This document shows positions 2,983 through 59,914 of a DNA stretch of 64,000 nt, one piece after another (the stretch's first letter is position 1; every line of letters begins with the position of its first letter). A program made the translations under genes and the position numbers. This stretch comes from Clostridium sp. (GTDB lineage: Bacteria; Bacillota; Clostridia; Clostridiales; Clostridiaceae): the NCBI RefSeq assembly GCF_016650035.1, contig NZ_JAENWM010000010.1:1-64000 (forward strand), in the 5' to 3' direction. Under the pieces are notes generated by a model, which saw only the letters and a list, made by a program, of their open reading frames with translations, did no database searches and was not told the origin of the DNA.

Positions 2983-2997
2983 AGAGGTTCATATGGG

Positions 2998-3075
2998 GAG
3001 CCGGATGCCTAAATTGGGCACGTCCGGTTCTGAAAGGGGCGGTATCTGTGAAGATTACCGTCTACTTACCCAAAT
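2998..3075 (+). ncRNA. Group II intron 3' end (domain V and VI)
   Basis: GAGCCGGATGCCTAAATTGGGCACGTCCGGTTC (2998-3030) is a domain V hairpin; followed by a DVI-like GGTATCTGTGAAGATTACC and CTACTTACC 3' end. Confidence 0.8.
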
Positions 3076-11975: not shown

Positions 11976-12200
11976 TCGCAAATTAGTATTTGCTGACATA
12001 AATGTTATTCTATATAGAGGAAATTGGTAATTGATGTAAAAATATAGGTTTAGGATACTTAAATAATTAAAGGAGTACATTTATGGATGATTTGAGACTA
12101 TCAAATATGAAAAATAATATCAATCAGTTAAAGGTGATATATAACAAGAACGAAGAATTATTAAAGGAAATTGGAGAAAAGTTTAATATATTTTAAATAC
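11976..12200 (+). pseudogene. Third copy of the leader plus truncated 5' end of the PDDEXK_4 nuclease gene
   Basis: 12072-12195 (ATGGATGATTTGAGACTATCAAATATGAAAAATAAT...GGAGAAAAGTTTAATATATTTTAA) duplicates 9429-9550 and then stops. Confidence 0.85.
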
Positions 12201-12211
12201 TTAGAAACAAA

Positions 12212-12285
12212 AACTGTTCCAGCTTTTGACAAGGGTCTGACCCCTTACACAGATTGGAAGTTAAACGGACAAGCTGTGTTGCTAA
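12212..12285 (+). repeat. Dispersed structured repeat, copy F
   Basis: CAGCTTTTGACAAGGGTCTGACCCCTTACACAGATTGGAAGTTAAACGGACAAGCTGTGTTGCTAA; ACACAG (12247-12252) pairs perfectly with CTGTGT (12274-12279). Confidence 0.85.
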
Positions 12286-12319
12286 AGCTACAACCATAAA
12301 AACTCCATTTTTTTCTACG
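12283..12319 (+). repeat. 37-nt fragment of the downstream reverse transcriptase gene
   Basis: TAAAGCTACAACCATAAAAACTCCATTTTTTTCTACG equals 15087-15124 inside the RT gene with one A deleted. Confidence 0.9.
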
Positions 12320-12343
12320 TAGCAAAACAAATTATGTTTACAA

Positions 12344-12390
12344 TTTGTTCACGTACCCCGGGGGTTTTTATGAGCAAAGCGAATTTGCTG
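12344..12390 (+). repeat. Second repeat family, copy J
   Basis: TTGTTCACGTACCCCGGGGGTTTTTATGAGCAAAGCGAATTTGCTG. Confidence 0.75.
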
Positions 12391-12482
12391 TGAATGTTTT
12401 TCCGAAAAAGTGTCAAGGGTTGAGTAGACATTATGAATATAGATATGTTACTTAAAAAAACACATAGAGGTGATTAGTAAGA

Positions 12483-13838
12483 ATGGTATATAACAGTTTT
12501 ATAAAATGTAGAGTATGTGAGAGTATAACTAGAGTTAGACTGCAGGTAGGATGGCAAGAACAACATCCAATTGTTATTGCTTGTGGAAAATGTGGTACTT
12601 CATTGTTGGGTAAAGTACATATAGGCCAAGTTGAGCCGGGATTGAAGTTTGAGTTTGATAATGCTGATATTTTAAGTAATGATGACAAGGCGGATTATCT
12701 CGTTGAATGTTCGGGCGAATTTCCTACAGTAAAACAGTATAATGGAGCGCAAGCACCAGAAATGGATATAACACCGTTTATCAGAAATCAAATGCGAATG
12801 GAGGAAGAAAATGGGTATGATAAGTTCGTAAATAGCGTATCAACATTAAATAAAACGGCTGAAAAGTGGACTGATTATAAAAGAGTGCTTGATTTATCCC
12901 AAAATGATAATAAAAGCTATTTGCTTCAGGAGATAAAGAAAATATTTTCAGAGGATGTATTTCCTTGTAGAAACGAATTTGAAATATTAAGGGCAATACA
13001 TATGATTGAAATTCATGGATTTATATCTCCACTTCGTAGAGATATTATTGATGATCTTACGATAAGTGACAGTGTATTGAAACTGGACATTGAACAGATC
13101 AGTGCACTGATAAAATATTTGAATTGTCACGATGGCTATAGTCTGAACGAACTTCAATCGCTGATTTACAAAATGCTAAATGAATTTATCGAAGTATATC
13201 CTTTCTTGATTCCGGCCTTTGCTACTCAGTTTTATAAAGAAAGTTTTGTAGACTTTGCAATTGAAGGATCAACAACAAGTACTTTTGATTCAGTAAAACA
13301 ATTTTATTTAGATGCATATGAAGCATTGGGAACACTAATGGTTTTACCGACGTCATTAAATAATATAAAATATCGTAGTAATTATGAATCAATCAAGGTA
13401 ATGGTAAACAAGGTAAAGTCTTTGGATGGCTTTATAGGTTTGACAAAAGCTAACAGGTTCCATTTCTGTAATGAAACAGAATCATATACGGAGAGTCTTC
13501 ATGTTATAGTTAATTCAAAATTGCGTAATGCAATAGGTCATAATGATGTTAGCTATGACACAATCACACAACAGATAACATATATTCCGAATCCAAAAGA
13601 TAGATCAAAGAAAGAGACTGCGTATCTGTTGGAATTTGAGAATGAAGCTGTGCGACTATTTCAGGCTATATTAGTTATATCGGAATATTTGTATAGGCTA
13701 AGAGAAGTTGATTTGATGAATCAAGGCAACATTCCAATTAATTCTAATACTCCAGTTAAAAGGCCTAAAAAGATTGGTAGAAATGATAAATGTTCATGCG
13801 GTAGTGGCTTGAAATATAAGTTTTGTCATGACAGATAG
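12483..13838 (+). CDS. Zinc-ribbon/SEC-C motif protein with HEPN-like RNAIGH motif
   Basis: N-term CRVCESITR...CGKCGTSLLG; C-term KKIGRNDKCSCGSGLKYKFCH (SEC-C); internal SKLRNAIGHNDVSYDTITQQI (Rx4H). Confidence 0.8.
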   Translation: MVYNSFIKCRVCESITRVRLQVGWQEQHPIVIACGKCGTSLLGKVHIGQVEPGLKFEFDNADILSNDDKADYLVECSGEFPTVKQYNGAQAPEMDITPFIRNQMRMEEENGYDKFVNSVSTLNKTAEKWTDYKRVLDLSQNDNKSYLLQEIKKIFSEDVFPCRNEFEILRAIHMIEIHGFISPLRRDIIDDLTISDSVLKLDIEQISALIKYLNCHDGYSLNELQSLIYKMLNEFIEVYPFLIPAFATQFYKESFVDFAIEGSTTSTFDSVKQFYLDAYEALGTLMVLPTSLNNIKYRSNYESIKVMVNKVKSLDGFIGLTKANRFHFCNETESYTESLHVIVNSKLRNAIGHNDVSYDTITQQITYIPNPKDRSKKETAYLLEFENEAVRLFQAILVISEYLYRLREVDLMNQGNIPINSNTPVKRPKKIGRNDKCSCGSGLKYKFCHDR

Positions 13839-14113
13839 TTCAGATGAATATTAAAGAAAAATAGACAAGAATTAAAAAATACCCTTCCGCCAAGGCCCCG
13901 ATAGGTTTTTAGGACATCATTATCACCGCCACAAGTCATGTAGAGTGCGTGGCGCGGATAGAGAAAAGTAATAGAAATTGATAGCCTCACAAAGCCAGTA
14001 ATAACTGTTTTTGCTAGCTTTGGGGAATTTTTTACGCATATATAACTATAACTACCACGAGAGTAGGTGTGTTTTCTTGTCCGTGGGAACGGGAATATCG
14101 CGTTAGCAAGCAA

Positions 14114-14159
14114 ATTGTTCACGTCCCCCGGGGGTTTTTATGAGCGGAGCGAATTTGAT
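14114..14159 (+). repeat. Second repeat family, copy K
   Basis: TTGTTCACGTCCCCCGGGGGTTTTTATGAGCGGAGCGAATTTGATA. Confidence 0.75.
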
Positions 14160-14562
14160 AAAAACACTATGTGTATTGAAATCGCCATTATCCATACAGT
14201 TGAACAAGTTATGTATAATAATGGGAACTTGAAAAAGTGAATATGAATACTTGCTTTAAGAGTTTCACAAATACCGTTAGTGAAAATAGCATATTAATTA
14301 ATATTTTAGTTAGATGCGCAGCTTGATAAAGTTCATGGCCTATAATATCGACACCATTCGGGTTACCCCTAGGAGTCTTTGCTAGGCCTTGGCTGAGATT
14401 GCTACGAGACCTTGTATGAGCTTGCTATTACACTTGATGGTGAGCCTATGTCCATTAGAGTAGAACTTATTTACTGTTTTTACCAAGTCACTGTTACCTT
14501 AGTGGGTCATGAAGTGGCCTGATTGCTAAGTTAAATCTGCAACCTGTATTTACTTTTTTTGT

Positions 14563-14621
14563 GGCTGACGCGACCCCGTTACATAAATTTGTAACTTAGT
14601 AGACAAGTTCTGTTTGCTACT
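14563..14621 (+). repeat. Dispersed structured repeat, copy G
   Basis: GGCTGACGCGACCCCGTTACATAAATTTGTAACTTAGTAGACAAGTTCTGTTTGCTA; ACATAA (14581-14586) vs TTCTGT (14608-14613), 5 of 6 pair. Confidence 0.8.
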
Positions 14622-14730
14622 ATATATACAATGATTTCATTTCTGATTTTTAACTTTGTGGATAAATGAAAATAACATGAAAAAATATTTATATTAATAA
14701 ACTTAAGAATAAAAAAGGTGGTGATTTAAT

Positions 14731-16848
14731 ACGGGAACGCAATATGATAAATTCATTTCAAAAGAAAATTTTATACTTGCTTATAAAAGATTGAAGACAG
14801 TTAAAAGAGACGAGTACAAAGAATTTTTTTACAAAGATTTTGAATGCTTCGAACTATTTTTTGAAAAAAATATCGATCAGCTTATTATTAATATTCGTGA
14901 GTATATATATATACCTCAAAATTGTGAAAAGTATTATATGCCAAAGAAGAAAAACTTGGCTCGTCCAATAAGTTTGCTGTGCCTAATTGATCAAATTGTA
15001 TATCAAGCGTTAGCCAATATTATAGCCGATATATTTTATCCGATAATGTTAAAATATTTTAATGCTAACACATTTGGAAATGTTTTTAAAGCTACAACCA
15101 ATAAAAACTCCATTTTTTTCTACGAGAGGTGGAAAACTCAATGGAAAAAATTTAACGATATAAAAAGAGCTTCTTACTATGTCGGTTACCATTATACAGC
15201 TGAATTTGACATTGCTTCTTTTTACGATACAATAGATCACAATATATTGTGCGAAATATTAAAAGAATATGGAATTCAGGATGATTTAATTGAAATGTTG
15301 AGATGGTGTCTTTCTCAGTGGACAGTGTCTCCAACTGCCAATTTTAAATTTAAAAAAAGCAATGGTATACCTCAAGGGCCTATAAGTTCCTCATTTATTT
15401 CGGAAATTTATTTGTTTAAAATTGATGAAGAACTTAGAAAACATAAAAACATAAAATATTTTAGATATGCAGATGATATTAATATAATGGCCAAATCGCA
15501 GATTGAGTGTCAAAAAATAGTTGTCTATTTAGATTTATTGGGTCGCGATTTATCTTTGATACCACAATCTGAAAAAATTGGTATTGTTTATATTGAAAAT
15601 ATAGACAAGCACATAAATACTGTATCTGCGAAATTTTCAAATATTGCTAAAGAATATCAAAAGAACAATAATAAATTAAAAACTAAAACTCATACAAAAC
15701 TAAAAAAACAACTTATAGATTGCATTAAAAATACCGATTTAAACAAAACCATTATCAGCTTTGCACTTTTTAAACTCGATAAAGATGATGATATAAAAAA
15801 TATTTTGTTGCAAAATCTTAATAAATTAGAATTATTTTATAAGGGTATTATTTATTATTTTGATAAGAATTACCCTTCGGATGATACCTTTATTAAATAT
15901 ATATCATCATACTTATTAGGGGATACGGTACTATATCAATACAATAAGTCATTGTTATTTAAAAGTTATAGAAGCTTAAAATTTGATGAAAAGGTATTTC
16001 ACTCTAACTATAAAAATGAGAAGAGATTTTGGATAGTAAAATATCAACTAATTAATTGGTTAAAAAATAATGAACAATTTGATTTAATAATGCAATTTGA
16101 TGAAAAAAACAATTACTACATACAGAGAGAAGTTAATTTTATAAAATATGAATCTTATAAAACTGACTATTCTAAACAAGTATTTTTAAAAAGCCTAATC
16201 TGCAGTAATGATGTTATGACTTCTTTACATGGTCTTAATATGTGGTATAAAGAATTTTCTCATAAACCAATAATTGATAATTGCAATGACTATATAAAAA
16301 AAATAATTAATGATGAAGAATATGATTATTTACAGTACATAATGGTTACTGAGTTTAATGTAGAAGTACCAGATAATTTTTTAGTTCTATGCAAAGAAAC
16401 ACAAATAGTATACAAAGAAATAAAAGATGATTTGAGAATTTACATAAATAAAAAGAATATTAATCCTAATGAGTCTTTAATGGCATTAGATTTATTTCAT
16501 AATATTTTATTTGATATAATTTCAAAGGATAAAGAGTATACAACAGGCGATTTTGGATCTGTATTAGATCAAATGGCAAGTGAATTTCCTATTGCTTATC
16601 ATTCATTTAAAGCTGTTCATGAAATTAGAAACCAAAAGACATTAGCACATTATAAAGATAAAAATGGTAAGCCAAGACTTAAAATATGTCAATCTGAGTT
16701 TGATAATTTCATACAAAGCATAAAATTACATGAGGCTTATGATGAAATTTTTATACACTATGGAGAAATATTAGCAGAGGCAGTCAAAGATAGTGGTGGT
16801 TTAATAGCAGCGCAACAAGTTGCAATAAGTCAAGATAAAGAGGAGTAA
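14731..16848 (+). CDS. Abi/UG-type reverse transcriptase with C-terminal HEPN-like domain (AbiA-like architecture)
   Basis: LARPISLLCLIDQIVYQALANIIAD, TAEFDIASFYDTIDHNIL, GIPQGPISSSFISEIYL, KYFRYADDINIMA (YADD); C-term HEIRNQKTLAHYKDKNGKPRL (Rx6H). First canonical start is TTG 14791, but coding similarity runs back to ACG 14731 after a GGTGGTGA RBS. Confidence 0.85.
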   Translation, partial: TGTQYDKFISKENFILAYKRLKTVKRDEYKEFFYKDFECFELFFEKNIDQLIINIREYIYIPQNCEKYYMPKKKNLARPISLLCLIDQIVYQALANIIADIFYPIMLKYFNANTFGNVFKATTNKNSIFFYERWKTQWKKFNDIKRASYYVGYHYTAEFDIASFYDTIDHNILCEILKEYGIQDDLIEMLRWCLSQWTVSPTANFKFKKSNGIPQGPISSSFISEIYLFKIDEELRKHKNIKYFRYADDINIMAKSQIECQKIVVYLDLLGRDLSLIPQSEKIGIVYIENIDKHINTVSAKFSNIAKEYQKNNNKLKTKTHTKLKKQLIDCIKNTDLNKTIISFALFKLDKDDDIKNILLQNLNKLELFYKGIIYYFDKNYPSDDTFIKYISSYLLGDTVLYQYNKSLLFKSYRSLKFDEKVFHSNYKNEKRFWIVKYQLINWLKNNEQFDLIMQFDEKNNYYIQREVNFIKYESYKTDYSKQVFLKSLICSNDVMTSLHGLNMWYKEFSHKPIIDNCNDYIKKIINDEEYDYLQYIMVTEFNVEVPDNFLVLCKETQIVYKEIKDDLRIYINKKNINPNESLMALDLFHNILFDIISKDKEYTTGDFGSVLDQMASEFPIAYHSFKAVHEIRNQKTLAHYKDKNGKPRLKICQSEFDNFIQSIKLHEAYDEIFIHYGEILAEAVKDSGGLIAAQQVAISQDKEE

Positions 16849-16889
16849 TATAATAATTAATATTGTAATATAAGGATGAGATAAGAATA

Positions 16890-16980
16890 ATAATTATCGA
16901 GATTTACATCTGTGGTAATAAGTAAAAAGGAAATTATCCTTAAATCTCGAATACTTCATATAATAACAAGTATACATGGG
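16890..16980 (+). ncRNA. Candidate structured leader, copy 1
   Basis: 10-bp perfect stem TCGAGATTTA (16897-16906)/TAAATCTCGA (16941-16950), then ATACTT...AAGTAT hairpin (16951-16973); homologous to 23990-24070. Confidence 0.6.
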
Positions 16981-16998
16981 CGTATAAGCCACCATGTT

Positions 16999-17035
16999 AA
17001 AATACTCGGATGGACTATACCCGAGTATTTTAAAG
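16999..17035 (+). terminator. Hairpin, possible terminator/attenuator
   Basis: AAAATACTCGG...CCGAGTATTTT 11-bp perfect inverted repeat; only a short T tract. Confidence 0.5.
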
Positions 17036-17108
17036 AGGTTTGAAAAAGGTTAATACAGTAACTTTTAATTGTAAAGTGAAAAGTTTTATAAGTAAAGGGG
17101 TAGTGGTT

Positions 17109-18026
17109 ATGTTTTTATATAAAATAGATGGTAATAACTTAGAAGAAATAAAGGAAAAGACTTTTTCAAAAGAGGTGGAGCTTCATAAGTTATGTGAAAA
17201 TAATTTAGAGGATATATTTGGGTTAAAGTTTGTTAGGAGAGAGTTCACTTTTAACAATTTTAGGCTTGATACTTTAGCATTCAATGAGAACAGTAAATCA
17301 TTTGTTATCATTGAATATAAAAATACTAGTAACTTTAGTGTTATAGATCAAGGCTATTCTTATCTTTCTTTAATGCTTAATAATAAGGCTGATTTTATAC
17401 TTGAGTATAATGAAAATTGTAATAGTACATTAAAGAGAGATGATGTGGATTGGTCACAATCAAGGGTTATATTTGTATCACCAGCCTTTAATAATTATCA
17501 AAAGGAAGCTATTAATTTTAAAGATTTACCTTTTGAGTTATGGGAAGTAAAGAGATTTACTAATGATACAATGTATTTTAATCTAATTAAATCATCCAAA
17601 AGTAGTGAGTCTATAAAGACCATAGCTACAAGTGGTAGTGAAGCTGATATTGTAAATACAGAAGTTAAAGTATATACAGAAGAACAGCACTTAAATAACT
17701 CTAGTGAGGAAATTGTTGAATTATATGATAAATTAAAAGATTTTATACTAACATTAGATGACACTATTGATATAAAAGCTAAAAAATTAGAAGTAGGTTT
17801 TATGTATAACAAGAAAGTCATGTTAGATATACATTTGCAAAAGAAAGCCTTGAAAATCTGGTTAAATACAAAGGTAGGAACGTTAGATGATCCTAGAAAT
17901 ATCGCAAGAGATGTTTCGAATACAGGACACTGGGGAAATGGTGATTATCAGATACAAATAAGTAATGACGAAGATATTGAGTATATATTTAGTTTGATTA
18001 AGCAGTTATATAAATCGAAGAAGTGA
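17109..18026 (+). CDS. PD-(D/E)XK-type nuclease with C-terminal DUF5655-like domain
   Basis: FRLDTLAFNENSKSFVIIEYKNTSNFSVIDQGYSYLSLM (D..ExK); C-term MLDIHLQKKALKIWLNTKVGTLDDPRNIARDVSNTGHWGNGDYQI; ATG 17109 preferred over TTG 17040. Confidence 0.8.
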   Translation: MFLYKIDGNNLEEIKEKTFSKEVELHKLCENNLEDIFGLKFVRREFTFNNFRLDTLAFNENSKSFVIIEYKNTSNFSVIDQGYSYLSLMLNNKADFILEYNENCNSTLKRDDVDWSQSRVIFVSPAFNNYQKEAINFKDLPFELWEVKRFTNDTMYFNLIKSSKSSESIKTIATSGSEADIVNTEVKVYTEEQHLNNSSEEIVELYDKLKDFILTLDDTIDIKAKKLEVGFMYNKKVMLDIHLQKKALKIWLNTKVGTLDDPRNIARDVSNTGHWGNGDYQIQISNDEDIEYIFSLIKQLYKSKK

Positions 18027-18130
18027 TAAGATCAGACTTAGGGGTTAGAGTATGTGTATAAGTGATGAAAATTTATAGTTTAGAGATATAAATTAAACTT
18101 TACTAAATAAAATTAGGTGCATATTAAATT

Positions 18131-21043
18131 ATGGGGGATATTATGAATTCAATACTAGATAAAATAAATATTAAAGAAGATCATCAACTTAGTATTGATG
18201 ATGTTAAACATAAAGAAATAGAAAACACTGAATTCCTAGTCAATAACAAGCTAATAGTGAATTCAGAAAAAGGTAATCTATTAGATGAGCTTAAGAGATG
18301 CTTAAGTGACTGTGAGAAGTTTTATTTTAGTGTGGCATTTATTAATTTTAGCGGACTTCAGCTTTTATTGGATAGCTTTAAAGAACTTGAAGAAAAAGGT
18401 GTGAAAGGCAAGATACTAACATCCACATACCTTAATTTTACTGAACCAAAGGCTCTTGAAAGAATAAATAAGTTTAATAATATTGATTTAAAGATTTTTG
18501 TGGCTACTAATGAGAAAGGCTTTCATACTAAAGCATACATTTTTGAATATAAAGATGAATACAAAATAATTATAGGATCATCTAATATAACTCAAAGAGC
18601 TTTAAAGAGTAATGTAGAGTGGAATGTTAAAGTTATTTCTAAGAAAAACGATAGTTTTACCCGTGAGGTTTTGGAAGAGTATTTAAGTTTATGGGAAGTA
18701 ACTTCTATTGTAGATGATGACTTTATTAATAGTTATAGTAATTTTCTAAAGGAGATTAAAAAAACTGGGGAAAGCAAAAACTTAGACTTTAGTAATTATC
18801 AATTAATTAAGCCTAACCATATGCAAAAGAAAGCTATGGATAATTTGAGTAGATTAAGAGCTTCTGGTGAGATTAAAGCCTTGGTTATTGCTGCTACAGG
18901 TACAGGCAAAACATATATGTCAGCCTTTGATGCTGTGAGCTATAAACCTGAGAAGCTGCTTTTCTTGGTTCATAGGGAAGAAATATTAAGGAGTGCAGAG
19001 GAAACCTTTAAGAAATTAGTGAAGAATAAAAATAAAACTACAGGACTTTTAACTGGCACAAGTAAAGATTTGAACGCGGATTATCTGTTTTCAACTATAC
19101 AATCAATGAATAATAATCTTGAAAATTTCAAGCCAGATGAGTTTGAATATATAATCGTAGATGAGGCTCATCATGCTTCTAGCCCTTCTTATGCAAAAGT
19201 TATGGAGTATTTTAAACCAAGATTTTTACTTGGTATGACAGCAACACCAGAAAGATGTGATGGAGGTAATATATTCGATATATTTGATAATAATGTGGCT
19301 TTAGAATTAAGACTTAGGGAAGCCTTAGAGCTAGGACTAGTTATTCCATTCCACTATTTTGGTATATCTGATATTGAGGGTATTGACTTAAGTGATGTGA
19401 ATGTTCAGGATACAAATGAAATAGCTAAAAGATTAAAGGTTAATGAGAGAGTTGACTTTATTGTGGATAAGATGGAGTTTTACGGCTACGATGGAGAGAA
19501 ACGTAAAGGGGTAGGCTTCTGTGCAAGTATTGATCATGCTGAGTATATGGCAGCTGAATTTAATAAAAGAGGGATAAAAAGTATATGCTTAACAGGAGTA
19601 AATTCAGCAGATGAAAGAATATATTATATAAAGAAACTAGAATCAGATGAGGATGAATTAGAAGTTATATTTACTGTGGATATTTTTAATGAAGGTGTGG
19701 ATATACCAGCTATTAACTTAGTTTTAATGCTTAGACCAACTAATTCACCTATAATATTCATACAACAACTGGGTAGAGGACTTAGAAATCATAAAGAAAA
19801 ATCTTTTTTAACTGTATTAGATTTTATAGGAAATCATAAAAAAGTGTTTTTGATAGCAATAGCATTAAATGGTTCAAGATATTATGATAAAGATAGTTTG
19901 AAAGTAGCTGTGGCCACTCAGTTTGGGAATATACCTGGATGTACTAATATTCAAATGGATAGAATTGCTCAGGAAAGAATATTAGAGCAGTTAACTGACG
20001 AAAATTTTAATTCTATGAAATATTTAAAGGAAGAATATTTAGAATTTAAGATGATGAATAGTGGAAAAACTCCATATTTTCTTATGGATTATATAAAGTA
20101 TGAGGGAGCTCCAAATCCTTTGAAATTTTTAAATAAGGAAAAAACTTATATTGGGTTTGTGGCTAAAATGGAGAATGATGAAGCTTTAAAAAAATTATTA
20201 GAAGATGAAGCTTTTCTTAAAATCCTTAAAGAACTTTCAGCTAAGTTACCTATAAAAAGAGTATATGAATTTAGTGTAATTAAATATTTACTAATCCATG
20301 AAGATATAAGCTTTAAGCAAGCTAAAAATGAAATATTAAAGTATATTGAGGATGTAGATGATAATAGTATTATTCATGCTTTTCAGTGTTTGAATCAAAA
20401 CTACTATGATTCAGCTCAAGTTAAAAATAATATTAAATGCTTTGAACTTAATGAGGAAGTCTTAAGCCGTACATGGGCTTTTAAAACGGTAATATATAAT
20501 GAGAAATATAGAATGTACATTGAAGATGTTATAAATTATGCGCTTATAAGATATGAGAAAGAATTTGAAAGTAAGTATTATGGAGTGCCATTTTTTAAGT
20601 TATATGAACAATACCAAATGGTAGATGCAGCACTACTTTCAAATTATACTAAAATTCATAGCTCCTTCAGGGGGATCGGACTTATAGCAAATGGAAAAGA
20701 ATATTTTCTTTTTGTAGATTTACATAAAGAAGAAGATATTAAGGAAAGTATAAATTATAAAGATAAATTTAAAGATAGTAAATATTTTCAATGGCAAAGT
20801 CCCAATAGTACATCTCAAAGTTCAGAAAGAGGTAAAAACATTATTTTCAATAAACAAAGAGGGATTAACCTACATGTTTTTGTAAGGAAGTATAAGCAAA
20901 TTGATGGAGCTTCCGAGCCTTATATTTACATAGGTAAAGGTGATGTAACAGAATATGAAGGTGAAAAGCCGATAACTGTTCTAATGGAATTAGAACATGA
21001 AATGCCAGCGAATCTATATACAGAATTCACAAAAAAGGTATAG
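18131..21043 (+). CDS. PLD-domain/DEAD-DEAH helicase/DUF3427 protein
   Basis: PLD HTKAYIFEYKDEYKIIIGSSNITQRAL; Walker A AATGTGKT; DEAHH; QQLGRGLRNH; C-term FQWQSPNSTSQSSERGKNI...NLHVFVRKYK. Confidence 0.92.
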   Translation: MGDIMNSILDKINIKEDHQLSIDDVKHKEIENTEFLVNNKLIVNSEKGNLLDELKRCLSDCEKFYFSVAFINFSGLQLLLDSFKELEEKGVKGKILTSTYLNFTEPKALERINKFNNIDLKIFVATNEKGFHTKAYIFEYKDEYKIIIGSSNITQRALKSNVEWNVKVISKKNDSFTREVLEEYLSLWEVTSIVDDDFINSYSNFLKEIKKTGESKNLDFSNYQLIKPNHMQKKAMDNLSRLRASGEIKALVIAATGTGKTYMSAFDAVSYKPEKLLFLVHREEILRSAEETFKKLVKNKNKTTGLLTGTSKDLNADYLFSTIQSMNNNLENFKPDEFEYIIVDEAHHASSPSYAKVMEYFKPRFLLGMTATPERCDGGNIFDIFDNNVALELRLREALELGLVIPFHYFGISDIEGIDLSDVNVQDTNEIAKRLKVNERVDFIVDKMEFYGYDGEKRKGVGFCASIDHAEYMAAEFNKRGIKSICLTGVNSADERIYYIKKLESDEDELEVIFTVDIFNEGVDIPAINLVLMLRPTNSPIIFIQQLGRGLRNHKEKSFLTVLDFIGNHKKVFLIAIALNGSRYYDKDSLKVAVATQFGNIPGCTNIQMDRIAQERILEQLTDENFNSMKYLKEEYLEFKMMNSGKTPYFLMDYIKYEGAPNPLKFLNKEKTYIGFVAKMENDEALKKLLEDEAFLKILKELSAKLPIKRVYEFSVIKYLLIHEDISFKQAKNEILKYIEDVDDNSIIHAFQCLNQNYYDSAQVKNNIKCFELNEEVLSRTWAFKTVIYNEKYRMYIEDVINYALIRYEKEFESKYYGVPFFKLYEQYQMVDAALLSNYTKIHSSFRGIGLIANGKEYFLFVDLHKEEDIKESINYKDKFKDSKYFQWQSPNSTSQSSERGKNIIFNKQRGINLHVFVRKYKQIDGASEPYIYIGKGDVTEYEGEKPITVLMELEHEMPANLYTEFTKKV

Positions 21044-21062
21044 CAATTTTGCTATACCTTTT
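21031..21062 (+). terminator. Bidirectional terminator between helicase and NUDIX genes
   Basis: A run, GGTATAGCAA-TT-TTGCTATACC, T run. Confidence 0.85.
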
Positions 21063-21077
21063 CTGATAAAAGCTGGT

Positions 21078-21458
21078 TTACAGCTTGAATATCTGCGGAG
21101 CCCATTTTAGGGAAAGTAAATTCTCTCTATGTAACCATATTAATTTTGAATGCTCGCTTATGGTAGGAGTACCAGCAACTAAGCGGCACTTAACAGTAAA
21201 TAAATTCACTATAAACTTATCATATTCGTAAGTATTATCATTAAAGCGATCAATAAATTCAACTTCGCAAGCTAGTTCTTCTTTTATTTCTCTTTCAATA
21301 GCTTCTTTTAAAGTTTCACTACTTTCTATTTTACCACCAGGGAATTCCCACATATTTGGAATGGACATTGTTGGAGCGCGAAGAGCACATAAGATTTCAT
21401 TATTTTCATTTTCGATAATGGCTCCTACAACTTTTATTAATTTCTTCATATAAAACAC
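21078..21458 (-). CDS. NUDIX hydrolase (MutT/CTP pyrophosphohydrolase-like)
   Basis: Nudix box GGKIESSETLKEAIEREIKEELACEVEF. Confidence 0.92.
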   Translation of the reverse strand: MFYMKKLIKVVGAIIENENNEILCALRAPTMSIPNMWEFPGGKIESSETLKEAIEREIKEELACEVEFIDRFNDNTYEYDKFIVNLFTVKCRLVAGTPTISEHSKLIWLHRENLLSLKWAPQIFKL

Positions 21459-21659
21459 CTCTAGGTAATTTTAGCATAAAAGGTGTGAATGCAAAAGTGA
21501 TGGGTTATTAAGTACGTTAGGTTTTGAGAGAGGTTAAGGGGAAATATAGAGGGATCAACATAAATCATATATACTAATTTAAAAAACATTTCATAAAAAA
21601 AGACTAAGAGCAAATATACATTATGGTGACTATGGCTTGGGGAACATTGTAAAAGTCAC

Positions 21660-21848
21660 TAACTTGGTTCAAAAGATATAATGCGAAGCAGTTTATAAAA
21701 ATTATGGAAATAGCACCGATAAAAGAATTTGATATGAAGTTGTTTTTTAGGCTTATTGAAAAAGTGGCTGTGTTTGAGCGCAGAAGATTATAGTAACTTT
21801 GATTGTAGAGAGTGAGGTTGAAGTTATAATCGAATGGTATAAAGTGAG
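21660..21848 (+). pseudogene. C-terminal remnant of a large serine recombinase
   Basis: MEIAPIKEFDMKLFFRLIEKVAVFE... then VTLIVESEVEVIIEWYK in a shifted frame. Confidence 0.45.
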
Positions 21849-21916
21849 CCGGACGGTTTGGATTTTCACTTGGCTACCTTTTTCAATTACTTACAAACAC
21901 CTTCTATCAAATGAAA

Positions 21917-22936
21917 TCAATGTAAGCTTAGTGTTAATGGAGTGAGCGATTTAGGGCTGAAAAAGTGATTTCTACATACTTCTTTTTCTTTTCCAAAGCC
22001 TAGAGTATCCTTTAATTTAAGGGAATCATCTAACTTAGACAGTGGTAAAAAATATAAATTTAATTTTGGGAAAAGAGATTGAATAAATGTATAGTTATTT
22101 TTACAATACTGAGAAATAGCATAATATTTTTGGTCATCACTACAAATTATATTGTATAAATTTTGATTAATGGTGTTCCCACATACGTTTAATGCATGTA
22201 ATCTTCTAAAGGCATCTGCATAATTGTTAGAGAATTCAATTTCAAATGCAGCAATTGGACTTATAGCTACATACCAAATCACATCAATTCTATCTATGAC
22301 TTTACTTGATGCAATAGTCACTAAATCAGCAGGTTGACGATTTTTAGCAATGAGTAAATTAGTATTAAGTTTTTTCAATTTCTTTTTGTCATTTATAGCT
22401 ATGGTTACTTCGTATCCAAGACTTTCTCCTAAATTTAGTATATAGCTTTGAATTATTTCGTGACGAGTCTTACTAGGCAAATTGCTGATATAATATTTTT
22501 TTCTTATAATTTCGTCTACTGTAGCAAGTTCAAATTGTATTTTAATTGTTTCAGGATATTTATTACCAAATCTAACAATCCCATCTCCTTCATAATAGCC
22601 TAGAACTCTATTTCTATCCTTGTTATAACCTTTAACTTTATTGGTATATACCATGCTTTGATAAAGCTCATCATGTATGCAATCTAGTTGGGGGTTGTAA
22701 AGAACAAAGGGTTTACCGGCTGCTTCAGATAATCCAACTAAAATATATTTACTCTCAGAATTACTAATGTTTGATACTTTACTAAATGAGAAATCAGTAA
22801 AATTATTTTCGTCAAAAGTCCTTATATAGTCAAAGCTTGTAACAATAGTATAATCTATTAAAGTCTTTTTTAGTTCTTTATGGTTTTCCATAGTTATTAG
22901 CACCTCGTTAATTAATATTTTAATTATTTTAACCAA
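21917..22936 (-). CDS. Putative type II restriction endonuclease, divergent partner of the methyltransferase
   Basis: Divergent from the DNA methyltransferase; IDRIDVIWYVAISPIAAFEIEFSNNYADAFRRLHAL resembles an atypical D...ExE nuclease core. Confidence 0.6.
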   Translation of the reverse strand: MVKIIKILINEVLITMENHKELKKTLIDYTIVTSFDYIRTFDENNFTDFSFSKVSNISNSESKYILVGLSEAAGKPFVLYNPQLDCIHDELYQSMVYTNKVKGYNKDRNRVLGYYEGDGIVRFGNKYPETIKIQFELATVDEIIRKKYYISNLPSKTRHEIIQSYILNLGESLGYEVTIAINDKKKLKKLNTNLLIAKNRQPADLVTIASSKVIDRIDVIWYVAISPIAAFEIEFSNNYADAFRRLHALNVCGNTINQNLYNIICSDDQKYYAISQYCKNNYTFIQSLFPKLNLYFLPLSKLDDSLKLKDTLGFGKEKEVCRNHFFSPKSLTPLTLSLH

Positions 22937-23002
22937 AAAAGTATTTTTTATTATTCTTAATGAATATATATAGGATATAGCATTTTATATGGGTGATTAT
23001 CA

Positions 23003-23794
23003 ATGAATCAAATTAAAATTAACAATACAGACTGCTTAAGTGGATTGAAAAACGTTCAAGACATGTCAATAGACTTGGTTATTACTTCACCACCATATGA
23101 AAATTTGAGAGAATATAATGGATATATTTTTAACTATGATTATTTTAAAGAGGTTGCTAATGAACTACTTAGGTGTTTAAAAGTTGGTGCAGTAATAATA
23201 TGGGTTGTTGCAGATAAGACTTCTAATGGCTCAGAGTCTGGGGAATCATTTAGACAAGCTTTATATTTTAAAGAGATTGGATTTAAAATATGGGATACAA
23301 TGATTTTTGCAAAATATAATCCTGCTCCTAAAAATCACAGAAGATATGAACAAGAATTTGAGTACATGTTTGTTTTTGCAAAAGGAAAACCTAAGTGTTT
23401 TAATCCTATAATGATTCCATGTAAATTTAGTGGACAAAAAAGAACTGGAACTTATAGACAAGATAAAAAGGGACAACTTAAAAAACTTAATACTACGGGA
23501 AAGGTTAAGAGTATGAAAGTGAAAGGTAATATATGGTATTATGTCGTAGGTAAACATTGTACTGAAAATTTATTAGCACATAAACATCAAGCTATTTTTC
23601 CAGATAAGTTGGCAGAAGATCATATTATAACATGGTCAAATGAAGGGGATTTGGTTTTAGATCCTTTTATGGGAAGTGGAACCGTTGGTAGAGTATGTAA
23701 AAATATGAAGAGGCTATTTATTGGCTTTGAAATAAGTAAAGATTACTGTGAAAGTGCACAGCAAATGATTAGTGCCATTTCTCTTACAAACTAG
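23003..23794 (+). CDS. DNA methyltransferase, beta-type N4mC/N6mA
   Basis: DLVITSPPYENLREY (motif IV) N-terminal, LVLDPFMGSGTVGRV (motif I) C-terminal. Confidence 0.93.
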   Translation: MNQIKINNTDCLSGLKNVQDMSIDLVITSPPYENLREYNGYIFNYDYFKEVANELLRCLKVGAVIIWVVADKTSNGSESGESFRQALYFKEIGFKIWDTMIFAKYNPAPKNHRRYEQEFEYMFVFAKGKPKCFNPIMIPCKFSGQKRTGTYRQDKKGQLKKLNTTGKVKSMKVKGNIWYYVVGKHCTENLLAHKHQAIFPDKLAEDHIITWSNEGDLVLDPFMGSGTVGRVCKNMKRLFIGFEISKDYCESAQQMISAISLTN

Positions 23795-23910
23795 ACACTT
23801 TAAAGTTGGTTGCAAAGAGAATGCTTCAAGTCAACTCTTATGATTTCTCAATAATTGGCAGTATAATTTGTGGTTTATATTATTACCTCGGAAGTCATAG
23901 CAATAGAACG

Positions 23911-23945
23911 GCCATATACTTTATCACAGTATATGGCCTGTTTTA
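23911..23945 (+). terminator. Terminator after methyltransferase
   Basis: GGCCATATAC...GTATATGGCC stem then TGTTTTATT. Confidence 0.85.
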
Positions 23946-23989
23946 TTGCTAACTAAGCTTTTTAACGTGGGGGAACATTAATAATATTT

Positions 23990-24070
23990 ACACTTGCGGT
24001 CACAGGTAAGGAGGGAATCCACCCCTAAATCTAGAATACTCCATATAATAACAATTAAATTGGAGGTATA
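23990..24070 (+). ncRNA. Candidate structured leader, copy 2
   Basis: ATTTACACTTGCGGTCACAGGTAAGGAGGGAATCCACCCCTAAATCTAGAATACTCCATATAATAACAA aligns with 16900-16968; ATACTCC can pair with RBS GGAGGTAT (24062-24069). Confidence 0.6.
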
Positions 24071-24076
24071 ATTCCC

Positions 24077-27000
24077 ATGGTAAAAGAAGGAATATACGAG
24101 CAAATTATATATGATGATCTTAAAAACCAATTAATAAAATTAGATTCAGACAAATATATTTTCCAAAAGCAACCCATTGATGTAGAAGAGGCTAGAACTC
24201 AATTATCAAGCTATGTTTCTTCCGTGGTAAAGAAATGCCTAAGGTTTATCAGAGAAAATAATAAGCAAAACGATAAGGAAGCATTGATTTCACAAATAAA
24301 AGCCTGCAATGAGCTCATTCAAGGCTTAAGTACACTTGCAGAGGATAAAAATATTGAAGGTTTCAAAATTGATGAGGAGGGCGAAATCCTTACAGCATTA
24401 TATTCAAAGATAAACAATATAAGAGGAGTCAAGGAAGGTAAAGCAATTAGGCCTGTAACTCCACTTTCTCAAAGTTCCCTCTTTACTGGTACTACTCAGG
24501 AACCTAATATGATGGGGGAGATAAAGAAGGAGATATTGTGTAGTGATTCTGTGGACATGCTTGTTTCCTTCATTAAATGGAGTGGACTTAGATGTATCTT
24601 TGATGAGCTTAAGGAATTTACTGATAATGATGACCATAAGCTTAGGATAATTACAACTTCCTATATGGGAGCAACAGATTACAAGGCTATAGAAGAGCTG
24701 AGTAAGTTGAAAAATACAGAGATTATGATTTCATATGATACAGATAGAACAAGGCTTCATGCAAAGGCTTATCTTTTTCAAAGAGAGACGGGATTTACTA
24801 CAGCATATATTGGCTCATCAAACCTGTCGAATGCAGCTTTAACCTCAGGTCTTGAATGGAATATAAAAGTATCAGAAAAGGATTCCTTTGATATTATAAA
24901 GAAATTTCAGGCTACGTTTGAAGGCTATTGGAATGATGATGGGTTTACCTCCTTTAATGGTCAGAGTGAAGAGGATAAAAGAAGGCTTAAAAGCTCATTA
25001 AATAAGGAGGGGAAAACTGATAATAGTGTAAATTTTATGTTTGATATAAAGCCTTATTATTATCAGAAGGAAATTTTGGAGAAACTGAAGGCTGAGAGAA
25101 CTTTATTTAATAGATACAAAAATCTCATTGTTGCAGCTACAGGAGTAGGAAAGACTGTAATAGCGGGGTTTGATTATAAGGATTTCACAAAGGCACATAG
25201 GAAAGATAAGAATAGGCTTTTGTTTATTGCTCACAGGGAGGAAATATTAAAGCAAAGCAGAGATACATTTAGGGCTATTTTAAAGGACAATAATTTCGGG
25301 GATTTATTTGTAGGTGGCAATGTTCCAGATTCATTAGATCACTTATTCATGAGCATACAAAGTTTTAATTCAACTAAACTCAATGAAAAAACTGAAGCTG
25401 ATTTTTATGACTTTATTATAGTGGATGAATTCCATCATGCTGAAGCACCTTCTTATCAAAAGCTACTAGATTATTATGAGCCTAAAATATTACTTGGATT
25501 AACTGCTACTCCTGAAAGAATGGATGGCAAAAATGTGTTGGAGCATTTCGATGATAGAATAGCCGCAGAAATGAGACTTCCCGAAGCTATAGATAGAAAG
25601 CTTCTGAGCCCATTTCAGTATTTTGCAGTTTCTGATTCTATTGATCTTTCTATACTTAAATGGACAAGAGGAGGCTATGACAAACAAGAATTAGAAAATG
25701 TATATACAAGTAATGATATTAGGGTAAACGGCGTAATAACAAGTCTTAATAAATATGTTACAGATATTGAGGAAGTTATAGGGCTTGGTTTTTGCGTAAG
25801 TGTTTTGCATGCTAAGTATATGGCTAATAAATTTAATGAGAGTGGAATACCTTCCATGGCAGTGCTAGGTGAAAGCAGCCCAGAGGATAGAAGTAGTGCT
25901 AAGAAGAAACTGGTAAGTGGAGAGGTTAAATTTTTATTTACTGTTGACTTATATAATGAAGGTATAGATATTCCTGAAATTAATACAGTGCTATTTTTAA
26001 GACCTACAGAGAGTTTAACAGTTTTTCTGCAGCAGCTAGGAAGAGGACTCAGACTTAGTGAAGATAAAGAATGTTTAACGGTCTTGGATTTTGTAGGCCA
26101 AGCGCATAGGAGTTATGATTTTGAGCAGAAATTCAAAGCTTTAATGGGAAGAGCAAAGCACTCAGTAGAACACAGTATAATTAATGGCTTTTTAAACCTG
26201 CCTAAGGGTTGTTATATACACCTAGAAAAGCAGGCTAAGGAATATATACTAAGAAATATAAAGGATGCAAGGGTTACCAAAGCTAATTTGATAAGCAAAT
26301 TAAAATATTTCGAAGGTGATACAGGCAAAGAACCTACCTTAAGTAATTTTTTAGAGCATTATAATTATACATTGAACGATGTGTATGGCAAAGGTGGAAA
26401 TAGAAGCTTTAGCAGAATGAAGGTTGAGGCCGGAATAATGCATGACTTTAAAAATAAAGATGAAGAAGTAATGACAAAGAGATTAAAAAATTTATTCCAT
26501 ATTAATTCACGAAAGCTTATTGAGTTTACAACGAATATATTAACCTGTGGTAGGATAATGCAAGGCTCTGAGTTTAATAAAGAAGAGAAATTAATGCTTG
26601 GAATGATATACTACAGTTTTTATTTAGAAGCACCATAAAAGCTTGGGTTTAATTCCTTTGAGAAGATTTTGGCTACTCTCTATGAGAATAATAAAGCAAT
26701 GATTGAAGAGGCATTTGAGATATTACAGTATAATTATTTGCATATTGATTTTGTTGATAAGTCTGTGGATTTAGGATCTATCTGTCCTATTGATTTGTAT
26801 TGCACATTTTCCACGGATCAAATCATGGCAGCGTTAGGATATTTTGATGAAAGTATAAAGCCAGCCTTTAGAGAAGGAGTAAAGCATTTTAAAGAAAAAA
26901 AGCTTGATGCTTTTTTCATAACATTAAATAAATCAGAGAAAGATTATTCGCCTTCTACACTGTATGAGGATTATGCTATCAATGAAAGGCTATTTCATTG

Positions 27001-27253
27001 GCAAAGTCAGAGCCGGACTACAGCGGTAAGTGATATGGGTCAGAGGTACATTAACCATGTGAATACTGGGAATAAGATAGTTTTGTTTGTACGTGAAAAT
27101 AAGAAAAAGGATGGATTAGTTGCAGCATATACTTACCTTGGAGAGGGAGAGTATGTTCGTCATAGCGGAAACAGTCCTATAAGTTTTGTGTGGAGACTTA
27201 AGGAAGACATACCTGCGCGACTTATGAGGGTGGCTAACAAGAGTATAGTTTAG
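24077..27253 (+). pseudogene. PLD-domain/DEAD-DEAH helicase/DUF3427 protein interrupted by an in-frame ochre codon
   Basis: 24077-26638 (HAKAYLFQ..YIGSSNLSNAAL; AATGVGKT; DEFHH) and 26669-27253 (DUF3427 C-term FHWQSQSRTTAVS...NKIVLFVREN) share a frame, separated by TAA 26636-26638. Confidence 0.85.
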
Positions 27254-27357
27254 TGGGTTTAATCACTTTCATTATATACAATAATATAAACTTTCGAGTA
27301 GAGAAGCTGATGTTTGGCCATAATTATAAATAAGTTATAGTTATGGAGGAGTTTATT

Positions 27358-27783
27358 TTGAAAACTTTTGGAGAGAGATTTAAGAGTGTAAGGTTGTCTA
27401 AAAATATGACTCAAAAACAGTTAGCAGATGAATTTAATGGGCAATACGGCTATGCATTTACAAAAACAACTATTAGCCAATATGAAAATAACAAGAGAAT
27501 ACCAGAGATGAATGCTATTAGAAATTTTGTAGAATACTTTAATGTTTCATTAGACTATTTACTCTGCAATGATATACATGTTATTAAGGAATTAGACCAG
27601 GAATATTATATGCATAATGATTCTCAATTTGTTGAATTAGAAAAAATAGCAACTTTAATAAAAAGTTTAGCTGAAGAAAAGAAAATACTTCACAATAATA
27701 AAGGATTAAATGATGAACAAAGAAAAATAATATCAAATGGCATTGATATTATTTGTGGATTAGTAAAAAGAGAAACAGAATAG
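27358..27783 (+). CDS. XRE-family HTH transcriptional regulator
   Basis: FGERFKSVRLSKNMTQKQLADEF...TKTTISQYENNKRIPEMNAIRNFVEYFNVSLDYLL; RBS GGAGGAG then TTG 27358. Confidence 0.9.
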   Translation: MKTFGERFKSVRLSKNMTQKQLADEFNGQYGYAFTKTTISQYENNKRIPEMNAIRNFVEYFNVSLDYLLCNDIHVIKELDQEYYMHNDSQFVELEKIATLIKSLAEEKKILHNNKGLNDEQRKIISNGIDIICGLVKRETE

Positions 27784-27790
27784 ATATGAT

Positions 27791-27831
27791 AAAATAGTAC
27801 ACATTTGATCTGTGGACAAGTGTGCTATTTT
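27791..27831 (+). terminator. Terminator after XRE gene
   Basis: AAAATAGTACAC..TTTG...CAAGTGTGCTATTTT imperfect stem. Confidence 0.65.
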
Positions 27832-27864
27832 GTCATAACAGTGTGGACGAAAATAGTCCGAATA

Positions 27865-29220
27865 TTAGTTATTATTGTCTATAGGATTTTCTAAATAGAT
27901 TTTTAAATTTTCATAAGTCCCAAAATGGTCATTAATCCAGTGATAGCTAGGGAGGTTGTTTTTAATGCGAAGCTCATCTATATTAGGAAAGCGGCCGTGC
28001 ATGGTTTTAAATTTTGTTATGGAGTCAAGCCTTAATTTGACTTTGGTGGTTATTGATAAATTCTTCAATTTCAAATAATCAAGTCCAAGGGAGTTAACGC
28101 AATCTTCAATTCCACCCCAATATTTAAAATAAACTTTTTGAGTATATGTTGTATTAGGAGGAGCTATCTCTCGCCATAATGGTAATCGTCCAAGTTTATT
28201 AATAAGATTTAATAAATCTTCCTTAGCTACTTTTTCATTAAAAGATAAATTAGCTAAAGTATTTATATCTAACCCAGCTGCTTTTAATGCGTTATTAAAT
28301 GTCCCAAACAATATAGTTATGGTTGTTGAAGAGGGGTAGTCTGGATTACCTACAAAGTCTCTAGTATAAGGACTTCTATTATTTTTTGTGTGAAACTCTT
28401 TTAACTTTTTAATCACATAGTTTTTTTTATGTTCTGTGTATATATCTTTTAAGTTTTTATATACTAAATGAAGATTCTTAATGTCATAACATAATTTATG
28501 ATAACCTAGTGCAGATAATCTCATAATTATTTCATCAGCAAAAACATATTTTAAATTTGGAAGGTTTAAGCCAGGTCTATTATTTTTGTTTAAGCACCAA
28601 TATTCTACTGAGGCACCTTGATCAGTAGCTTTTTTATATTGTTTTTCTTTGTGTTTGCAAGCGTAGTTGGAAGTGGCTGCATCGATTACTTTATGCTTAA
28701 GAGGAATATAAATATCTGGTTTGAAATCTAAACCAAATCCACAATACTGAAATAGACAGTCACCCTCTAGAATTGAAGCTGATATTTCAACAAGATACTG
28801 CCATGCAGACCAAAAGTCTTTAAAATCTAAAGGAGATACACCTGCTAATTTTAAAATGTCATTCCAGCAAGATACTTTAGTGCCGGGTTTATAATAAATA
28901 AAGTGCCTATAATACGTTTTGAAATGGGGATAGTTATCAGAATTATCAAAGTCAGCAGTCGTAGGTGCTCGTTTGAATTCATTGAAAAAATCTTTTATTA
29001 TTTGTAATAATTGTTCATCGCTTATAGTTGAATATTGCATAGATTTATAAGGAAGCATCACTCTACCTTCTTTAGAAGCCTTTCTTTCTTTATATCTTCT
29101 GTTAAGATATTTATTGCATTCCTTGCAGTATTTTTGGTGTCCATCTTTCGAGGACTTATTTAAATTAAACTCTGGTAAACTCTTAGTTTCTCTGTAGTAT
29201 TTGCATTGCTTATGATCCAT
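27865..29220 (-). CDS. Homing endonuclease-associated (HNH) repeat protein with N-terminal zinc motif
   Basis: CKYYRETKSLPEFNLNKSSKDGHQKYCKECN; at least four F/L..N.RxP...F/I...W/F..L repeats around KPDIYIPLKHKVIDAATSNY. Confidence 0.75.
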   Translation of the reverse strand: MDHKQCKYYRETKSLPEFNLNKSSKDGHQKYCKECNKYLNRRYKERKASKEGRVMLPYKSMQYSTISDEQLLQIIKDFFNEFKRAPTTADFDNSDNYPHFKTYYRHFIYYKPGTKVSCWNDILKLAGVSPLDFKDFWSAWQYLVEISASILEGDCLFQYCGFGLDFKPDIYIPLKHKVIDAATSNYACKHKEKQYKKATDQGASVEYWCLNKNNRPGLNLPNLKYVFADEIIMRLSALGYHKLCYDIKNLHLVYKNLKDIYTEHKKNYVIKKLKEFHTKNNRSPYTRDFVGNPDYPSSTTITILFGTFNNALKAAGLDINTLANLSFNEKVAKEDLLNLINKLGRLPLWREIAPPNTTYTQKVYFKYWGGIEDCVNSLGLDYLKLKNLSITTKVKLRLDSITKFKTMHGRFPNIDELRIKNNLPSYHWINDHFGTYENLKIYLENPIDNNN

Positions 29221-29320
29221 TTTAACACCAATCCTTTTTAATTATTACTTCAAGATTAGTATTTGTAATTAGCAACTTAATATACTCAAATATAGTACCT
29301 AATAATAAAAGTTTACTTTT

Positions 29321-29749
29321 GTGTTAACAAGCGGCATAAATTTTTATGGCAAAATTAAAGAAGTTAAAAGGTATAAACGTTGTATGTGTAGTGAGATTCC
29401 AGTTGGAAGAGGTAATGAGGAAGACGAGTATTTAAGGTTTGAATTAGAAGAATTAATTCAAATTAATAATATTAAACCAGTGGAGTATGGTACGCAGCTT
29501 ATTACATACACCACACTTTATTTACTTGAAAATGCAGAGAATATCCATGAGCTTAAACTTAAAAATAGGGATGAAATTGAACTTTACAAGATTTTGAAGA
29601 GAATATCAAAAGATAGGGGACTGAAACTTCTGAGAAAAACGGATTGCTATGTTCTAGATGGGAGAGTAATTGAGATGCTTTTGCATGGGGATGTTAGAGT
29701 TGATGGAAGGATAGTTCGGTTTGGGAAGCTTGAGAGTGAATGGGTGTAA
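29321..29749 (+). CDS. Hypothetical protein
   Basis: 142-aa open frame; 5' part duplicated at 34768-34815. Confidence 0.55.
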   Translation: MLTSGINFYGKIKEVKRYKRCMCSEIPVGRGNEEDEYLRFELEELIQINNIKPVEYGTQLITYTTLYLLENAENIHELKLKNRDEIELYKILKRISKDRGLKLLRKTDCYVLDGRVIEMLLHGDVRVDGRIVRFGKLESEWV

Positions 29750-29989
29750 AAACAACTGGTGTTAGCAAAAGAATTTGGCAAAGAATTTTTTTACACTCTA
29801 ATTTACAAGAAATAATTAATTCAAAGTTGACACACTGCGTCAAGAATTAAGTTGGACTCACTATAGACTGATAATGTATTATATGTAAAAGGCTTACTCT
29901 AAAGGGTAATCCTAATTTTATTATATCTACATATTAAATCTGTAGAGACACATAATAGATATAATTATTTAAAGTGTGAGGTGTAGTGA

Positions 29990-30730
29990 ATGCCAAATAT
30001 AAAGTCTGCAATAATCAGATTAATTCCTAAAAAGTTACTCTTAATAATGCTTTTTTCAATAATTCTAAACTGCAGTGTAATTATTGGAGAAGTAGTAGAA
30101 GCAGCAGTAATTGATATTGAAAGTAGTTTACCAAAAGTATCTAAAGAGGAAGTAATAAAACTAATAAATACACATGGAACTAAAGGACCTTATTATTTCG
30201 AGGGCCTTTCCTATAAGGTAGCTAACATTGATAAAGATAATGATTTTGAGATTGTTGCAAAAATTGATGGAGGGGTTCATGTAGGCTATTTCTTTATATT
30301 TGATAAGAATAACCAAGGTAAATATTCTCTTGTAGCAGAAAAAGATTGGAAAGTAGAAAAATTGGACTTGGAGTACTGGCACAATCTTAATGGAGAAAAT
30401 AAAGCTTATGAAATGACAACTCGTTCCGGTGGATCAGGTATGGATGTTTTTCATGGTCATGTATGGTATTTGAAAGATAGAAAGTTTGTTGAGGCATGGA
30501 TGGGAACGTTAAAGGAAAGAACGGCCTTTCAAGATATTCTCAGTTTACAGATTGGAGGTTATCAAATTAATAGCGATGATTTAAGACTATATGCGTGGAC
30601 AACGAAATATGGTACCAAAATAAGCACAAATACACTAATGACAAAGCCGACAACTATTGTATCAATATTCAAATTCGATGGTGTTAAGTATGTCTTGCAA
30701 AGTCAAGATACTTGTGACCATAGTAATTAA
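29990..30730 (+). CDS. Secreted/lipid-anchored hypothetical protein
   Basis: N-terminal signal-like KKLLLIMLFSIILNCSVIIGEVVEAAV; RBS GTGAGG. Confidence 0.65.
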   Translation: MPNIKSAIIRLIPKKLLLIMLFSIILNCSVIIGEVVEAAVIDIESSLPKVSKEEVIKLINTHGTKGPYYFEGLSYKVANIDKDNDFEIVAKIDGGVHVGYFFIFDKNNQGKYSLVAEKDWKVEKLDLEYWHNLNGENKAYEMTTRSGGSGMDVFHGHVWYLKDRKFVEAWMGTLKERTAFQDILSLQIGGYQINSDDLRLYAWTTKYGTKISTNTLMTKPTTIVSIFKFDGVKYVLQSQDTCDHSN

Positions 30731-59586: not shown

Positions 59587-59827
59587 TATAACACCTCCTA
59601 AATTTATGTTGGATAAAGTAAAAAATAGAAAAATTCAGAATATTTAAATTAATTATATCATAATTTGTCGATAATTCAACTGATACTATAGTGCCAAGTT
59701 GTCTATTAGGGTAGAATAAAGCGAGGCAAGTATAAAATATATGTTGATTTCCATATAAGCACGTGTTACAATCACCTGAGATATTAGCAATAAAAACAAT
59801 ACGAAAATTTAAATGATTTATATAGTT

Positions 59828-59914
59828 TTCTAGGGTTCCGCAGTTTATGACTGGACTGGTCCAAGAGAGGACGCACAGTTAATGTGTACACGGAAGGATA
59901 AAAGCCTGGGAGAT
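59828..59914 (+). ncRNA. Guanidine-I riboswitch (ykkC RNA)
   Basis: CTAGGGTTCCG ... GACTGGTCCAAGAG ... ACACGGAAGGATAAAAGCCTGGGAGA matches the conserved ykkC core. Confidence 0.93.

Follow-up and report, generated by a model that had tools for sequence, protein, structure and literature searches.

A conserved region upstream of two restriction loci in a Clostridium genome is most likely a promoter shared through descent and promoter capture

SauUSI-type type IV restriction enzymes combine a PLD nuclease, an SF2 helicase and a C-terminal DUF3427 domain; the searched text of the SauUSI paper contains the word "promoter" 0 times (PMC7913695). For defence islands more generally, the WYL-domain regulators BrxR and CapW have been described (PMC9122601, PMC9122588). 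The 64,000-nucleotide stretch of Clostridium sp. DNA analysed here (the window; contig NZ_JAENWM010000010.1) carries a gene with the SauUSI domain order, which we call hel2 (24077..26638, + strand; Pfam), and which matches the SauUSI structure PDB 7clg with an E-value of 2e-83. It differs from the described enzymes in being split by an in-frame stop at 26636-26638, with the DUF3427 part following in the same frame at 26669..27253 (+ strand; Pfam). The ortholog in genome G012 is broken at other places; most orthologs form one frame of about 1055-1090 aa, and unbroken ones exist in other genera.

A second locus lies to the left of hel2 on the same strand. It consists of a DUF5655 protein of 305 aa (17109..18026; Pfam; PADLOC PDC-S18), 94-95% identical in the congeneric genomes G003 and G010 (C. 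psychrophilum), and of hel1 (18131..21043; Pfam; PADLOC mREase_IV), a SauUSI-like gene with PLD, helicase and DUF3427 domains. The pair of hel1 and a convergent nudix gene (21078-21458) is conserved over many Bacillota, and since the nudix gene adjoins hel1 in most of 31 Bacillota loci (L088-L118), a functional pair is suggested. DUF5655 stands directly 3' of hsdS in G054 (L132, 1-2421), so it may serve type I restriction loci as an accessory gene. Neither G013 nor C. psychrophilum has the stretch from the nudix gene to an HTH gene (~21500-27271), and its content differs in G012, so that hel2 and the region in front of it sit in a variable insertion site. Within this stretch, broken reading frames at 21700-21870 resemble a candidate end of a serine recombinase. 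Elsewhere in the window, Rfam reports a Guanidine-I riboswitch at 59819-59914 (RF00442) and a group II intron match at 2996-3070 (RF00029).

A preliminary description of this DNA had proposed two homologous structured leaders, one in front of each locus. We find that the two copies are a real, homologous shared upstream region. Local alignment of 16902-17003 with 23986-24086 gave a score of 70, compared with a mean of 20.7 (sd 2.5) and a maximum of 32 over 1000 dinucleotide shuffles. Copy 1 (16890..16969, + strand; supported by alignment and shuffles) precedes DUF5655 and hel1, and copy 2 (23984..24055, + strand; left edge set by homology to G012) precedes hel2; the assignment of both copies to defence genes held up against Pfam and PADLOC. 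Our first profile, R1, matches them at 16902-16969 (E 3.9e-20) and 23986-24055, scores that reflect the inclusion of both copies in the model by construction. The extents first given were right as to the presence of both copies, but copy 2 really occupies 23985-24054, about 6 bases to the left, and the 3' end had been drawn too short. The homology continues about 33 bases further, up to ATGTTAAAA in copy 1 and ATGGTAAAA in copy 2, the latter being the hel2 start codon; a five-sequence profile likewise gives extents of ~16891-17002 and ~23976-24085. The added 33 bases span GTATAAGCC to ATGTTAAAA, their equivalent in copy 2 comprises the ribosome region and the hel2 start codon, and a TATAAT box in the conserved 3' part had been missed. 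The start-up region is common to the two defence genes because their fronts go back to a single ancestral gene front.

Profile searches, built on three copies and then on five (R1 and R2), covered several hundred further genomes in sets widening from family through order and class to phylum, under strict filters and on large sets, in which weak matches can be lost. Beyond the window copies, convincing relatives occur in three genomes, all in the genus: G012, where the relative precedes hel2, and G003 and G010, where it precedes DUF5655 and hel1. The first profile found G003 (E 1.9e-10) and G010 (E 6.0e-7) independently; all three relatives are in the later alignment, and their second-model scores are therefore by construction. 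Across the four taxonomic sets neither profile found anything convincing outside these five genus copies, and no convincing relative precedes unrelated genes, a check raised with the original proposal. Matches in G277, G600, G610 and G927 were rejected, having E-values of 2e-4 to 8e-4 per genome over ~400 genomes each and lying beside or inside unrelated genes, and an R1 match in G015 (E 0.0013) was set aside for its different context. A 20-base pattern with 2 mismatches was too noisy over the family. In the viral collection the long pattern had no match and a 16-base pattern gave 18 chance-level matches; plasmid and phage DNA yielded nothing notable. The element is missing from hel2 orthologs of other genera, which share 47-79% identity across the N-terminal 161 residues.

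Copy 2 offers the clearest view of what the region may do. A bidirectional terminator hairpin (23910..23938; 11 pairs, found on both strands) stands upstream, and only about 140 bases separate its end at 23938 from the hel2 ATG at 24077, half of them occupied by copy 2. Because copy 2 sits between this strong terminator and the ATG, hel2's own promoter, if any, must lie there. A perfect TATAAT, the candidate -10 box, is found at 24044..24049 (+ strand), -33 from the ATG and thus suitably spaced, and the hel2 ribosome site, GGAGG, is read from the sequence at 24062..24066 (+ strand). A -35 hexamer or extended -10 beside the TATAAT was not found (best 1/6 in copy 2), and a consensus promoter scan did not report the TATAAT of the element. 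We also examined the fronts of 27 hel2 orthologs outside the genus together with copy 2. Promoter-like sites lie upstream of the start, mostly at -37 to -61, with a mean score of 7.59 against 6.56 (sd 0.13) for shuffles, none of 300 scoring as high; these shuffles were mononucleotide, so composition is controlled and dinucleotides are not. In orthologs with unrelated upstream DNA the promoter-like site is often TGATAAAAT.

Copy 1 has a matching candidate -10 box, TATAAT, at 16959..16964 (+ strand), and the sequence around it is conserved unevenly. A 31-bp core, AAAGGaAATTATCCTTAAATCTCGAATACTT (16926..16956, + strand), is 90% identical to the window in G003 and 97% in G010; in the same two genomes the left flank and the element's 5' half reach 54-78%, and 16970 to 17036 reaches 63-81%. 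The region of the TATAAT box is 92% identical in G003, where the hexamer is intact, and largely deleted in G010, which has lost the hexamer and retained the core. The element in G010 thus cannot be the promoter as proposed. G003 and G010 both retain another TATAAT some 40 bases to the left; from it, copy 1 would be a transcribed leader. With a -35 missing and the -10 lost in G010, the promoter reading fits copy 2 best and is less certain for copy 1.

Downstream of its conserved part, copy 1 appears to preserve traces of how it arose. A short ORF at 16994..17036 (+ strand; MLKYSDGLYPSILK...) reads as a remnant of a hel2-type gene start, by DNA alignment to 17003 and by peptide likeness beyond. 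Past ATGTTAAAA copy 1 continues as MLKYSDGLYPSILKRFEKG and then a stop, resembling MLKEGVYEQIINR and similar hel2 starts; its codons give MLK-YS-DGLYPSI, where hel2 orthologs have MLKEGVYEQI, and G012 copy 2 has GTATAAGCCACATGTTAAAA where copy 1 has GTATAAGCCACCATGTTAAAA. After MLK, between 0 and 149 of 2000 shuffles aligned equally well to hel2 N-termini, depending on the ortholog. Further on, 17043..17097 (+ strand) looks like a decayed hsdS 3' tail before DUF5655: aligned to the hsdS stop region that precedes DUF5655 in G054 (L132; Pfam Methylase_S) it scores 34, against a maximum of 33 over 1000 shuffles, and aligned to a similar tail in G002 (L138) it scores 31. Read in this way, the simplest account appears to be a deletion that brought the start of a hel2-type gene up against the tail of an hsdS gene; an intact ancestor of copy 1 was not seen. 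Such a deletion would have taken nearly all of the hel2-type gene and most of the neighbouring hsdS, leaving the old promoter and first codons before DUF5655 and hel1, a case of promoter capture inside a defence island.

We therefore regard it as probable that the two copies share a common ancestor and that each represents the promoter, with its upstream regulatory region, of a hel2-type type IV restriction gene, copy 1 having been formed by deletion. Copy 2 would still drive hel2, with RNA polymerase at the TATAAT at 24044-24049, a transcript starting near 24055 and a short leader bearing GGAGG and ATG; the conserved core that precedes the -10 box may serve as a protein site in place of the missing -35. 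Against this stands the shortness of the hel2-codon remnant in copy 1, with statistics that shift with the ortholog chosen.

Being better conserved than its neighbours, the core seems still to have some role, perhaps protein binding, although it amounts to 31 bases across three genomes. In a tentative alternative, possible though not favoured, a transcription factor of the defence island, whether activator or repressor, would use the core as its operator and act on both operons together. The unusual conservation of the core next to the -10 box in the copy-1 relatives fits such a site, as does the lack of a -35, which recalls activator-dependent promoters, and BrxR and CapW provide precedents. 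However, no clear palindrome is retained across all five sequences, and the element is not accompanied by a regulator gene. As a partner, the HTH gene at 27343 was rejected for lack of specificity, being present also in G013, which is without the element. The broader proposal of a genus-restricted control element, operator or RNA, that uses the 31-bp core to switch on two restriction modules together, unrelated defence genes having come under one control through promoter capture, we consider unlikely.

The preliminary description had instead emphasized folding, and control of both operons by a cis-acting RNA leader, whether a riboswitch, an attenuator or a protein-binding leader, that is transcribed from a promoter further left is distinctly improbable on our evidence. 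The fold of copy 1 does exceed shuffles in stability (z -2.15; -4.04 when the hairpin after it is included), pairing holds in 90% of cells for an inner AAGG/CCTT hairpin, and both the possible upstream TATAAT in G003 and G010 and the retention of the core where the near TATAAT is lost would suit a leader. Yet for copy 2 shuffles fold equally well (z -0.05), none of 13 pairs is altered on both sides in the five sequences, and covariation over these pairs is not above shuffles; with five sequences the structure test is weak evidence either way. The outer 10-bp stem said to be kept is present in copy 1, but copy 2 has only its inner 5 bp and the relatives break parts of it, pairs 13-64 and 15-62 (nine tested) being broken in three and four of the five sequences. 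RNAalifold returns a consensus of a 5-bp hairpin without the outer stem. A 13-bp terminator-like hairpin after copy 1 (16997..17033, + strand) belongs to this genome only, at -15.1 kcal/mol here against -3.7 in G003 and -1.5 in G010. Neither copy matches Rfam at gathering or loose thresholds, where only chance matches at E 6-9 appear, which bears out the remark that no known riboswitch was recognised. A folded leader is not supported, the five sequences lending the stem no support, and the shared region has the look of an ordinary promoter, not of a novel folded RNA switch.

A reading in which the defence genes belong to a mobile cassette, with the element as its end or attachment site, is very unlikely: between-genome homology does end at its left edge (16889 for G010, 23984 for G012) and the nudix-to-HTH content differs among genomes, but a search of 12000-30000 with filters off gave two matches only, both at gene fronts, with none at either cassette's right end, the orientation is constant and always directly upstream of a gene, the homology enters the coding start, and G003 and G010 share further sequence on the left. 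On that side copy 1 adjoins a UG19 defence-type reverse transcriptase (14791-16848; PADLOC E 9e-149); a link of the element to this gene was rejected, because in G003 and G010 it stands beside different left neighbours.

If true, the promoter reading would provide a clear small case of defence-island rewiring, in which a deletion places an existing promoter before new defence genes. It also carries a warning that the homologous fronts of two genes can pass for a structured RNA family as long as few relatives have been compared. We conclude that the region is most likely a promoter with a conserved core, which reached both loci through descent and promoter capture. Compared with BrxR and CapW promoters, it shares the arrangement of a common upstream site before defence operons and differs in having no WYL regulator alongside (ten proteins scanned) and no conserved inverted repeat. 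Compared with a housekeeping sigma-A promoter with its 5' untranslated region, copy 2 is alike in having a TATAAT, a short leader, and a GGAGG and an ATG with the customary spacing, whereas the element stands apart through its lack of a recognisable -35 or extended -10 and its unusually long conserved upstream stretch.
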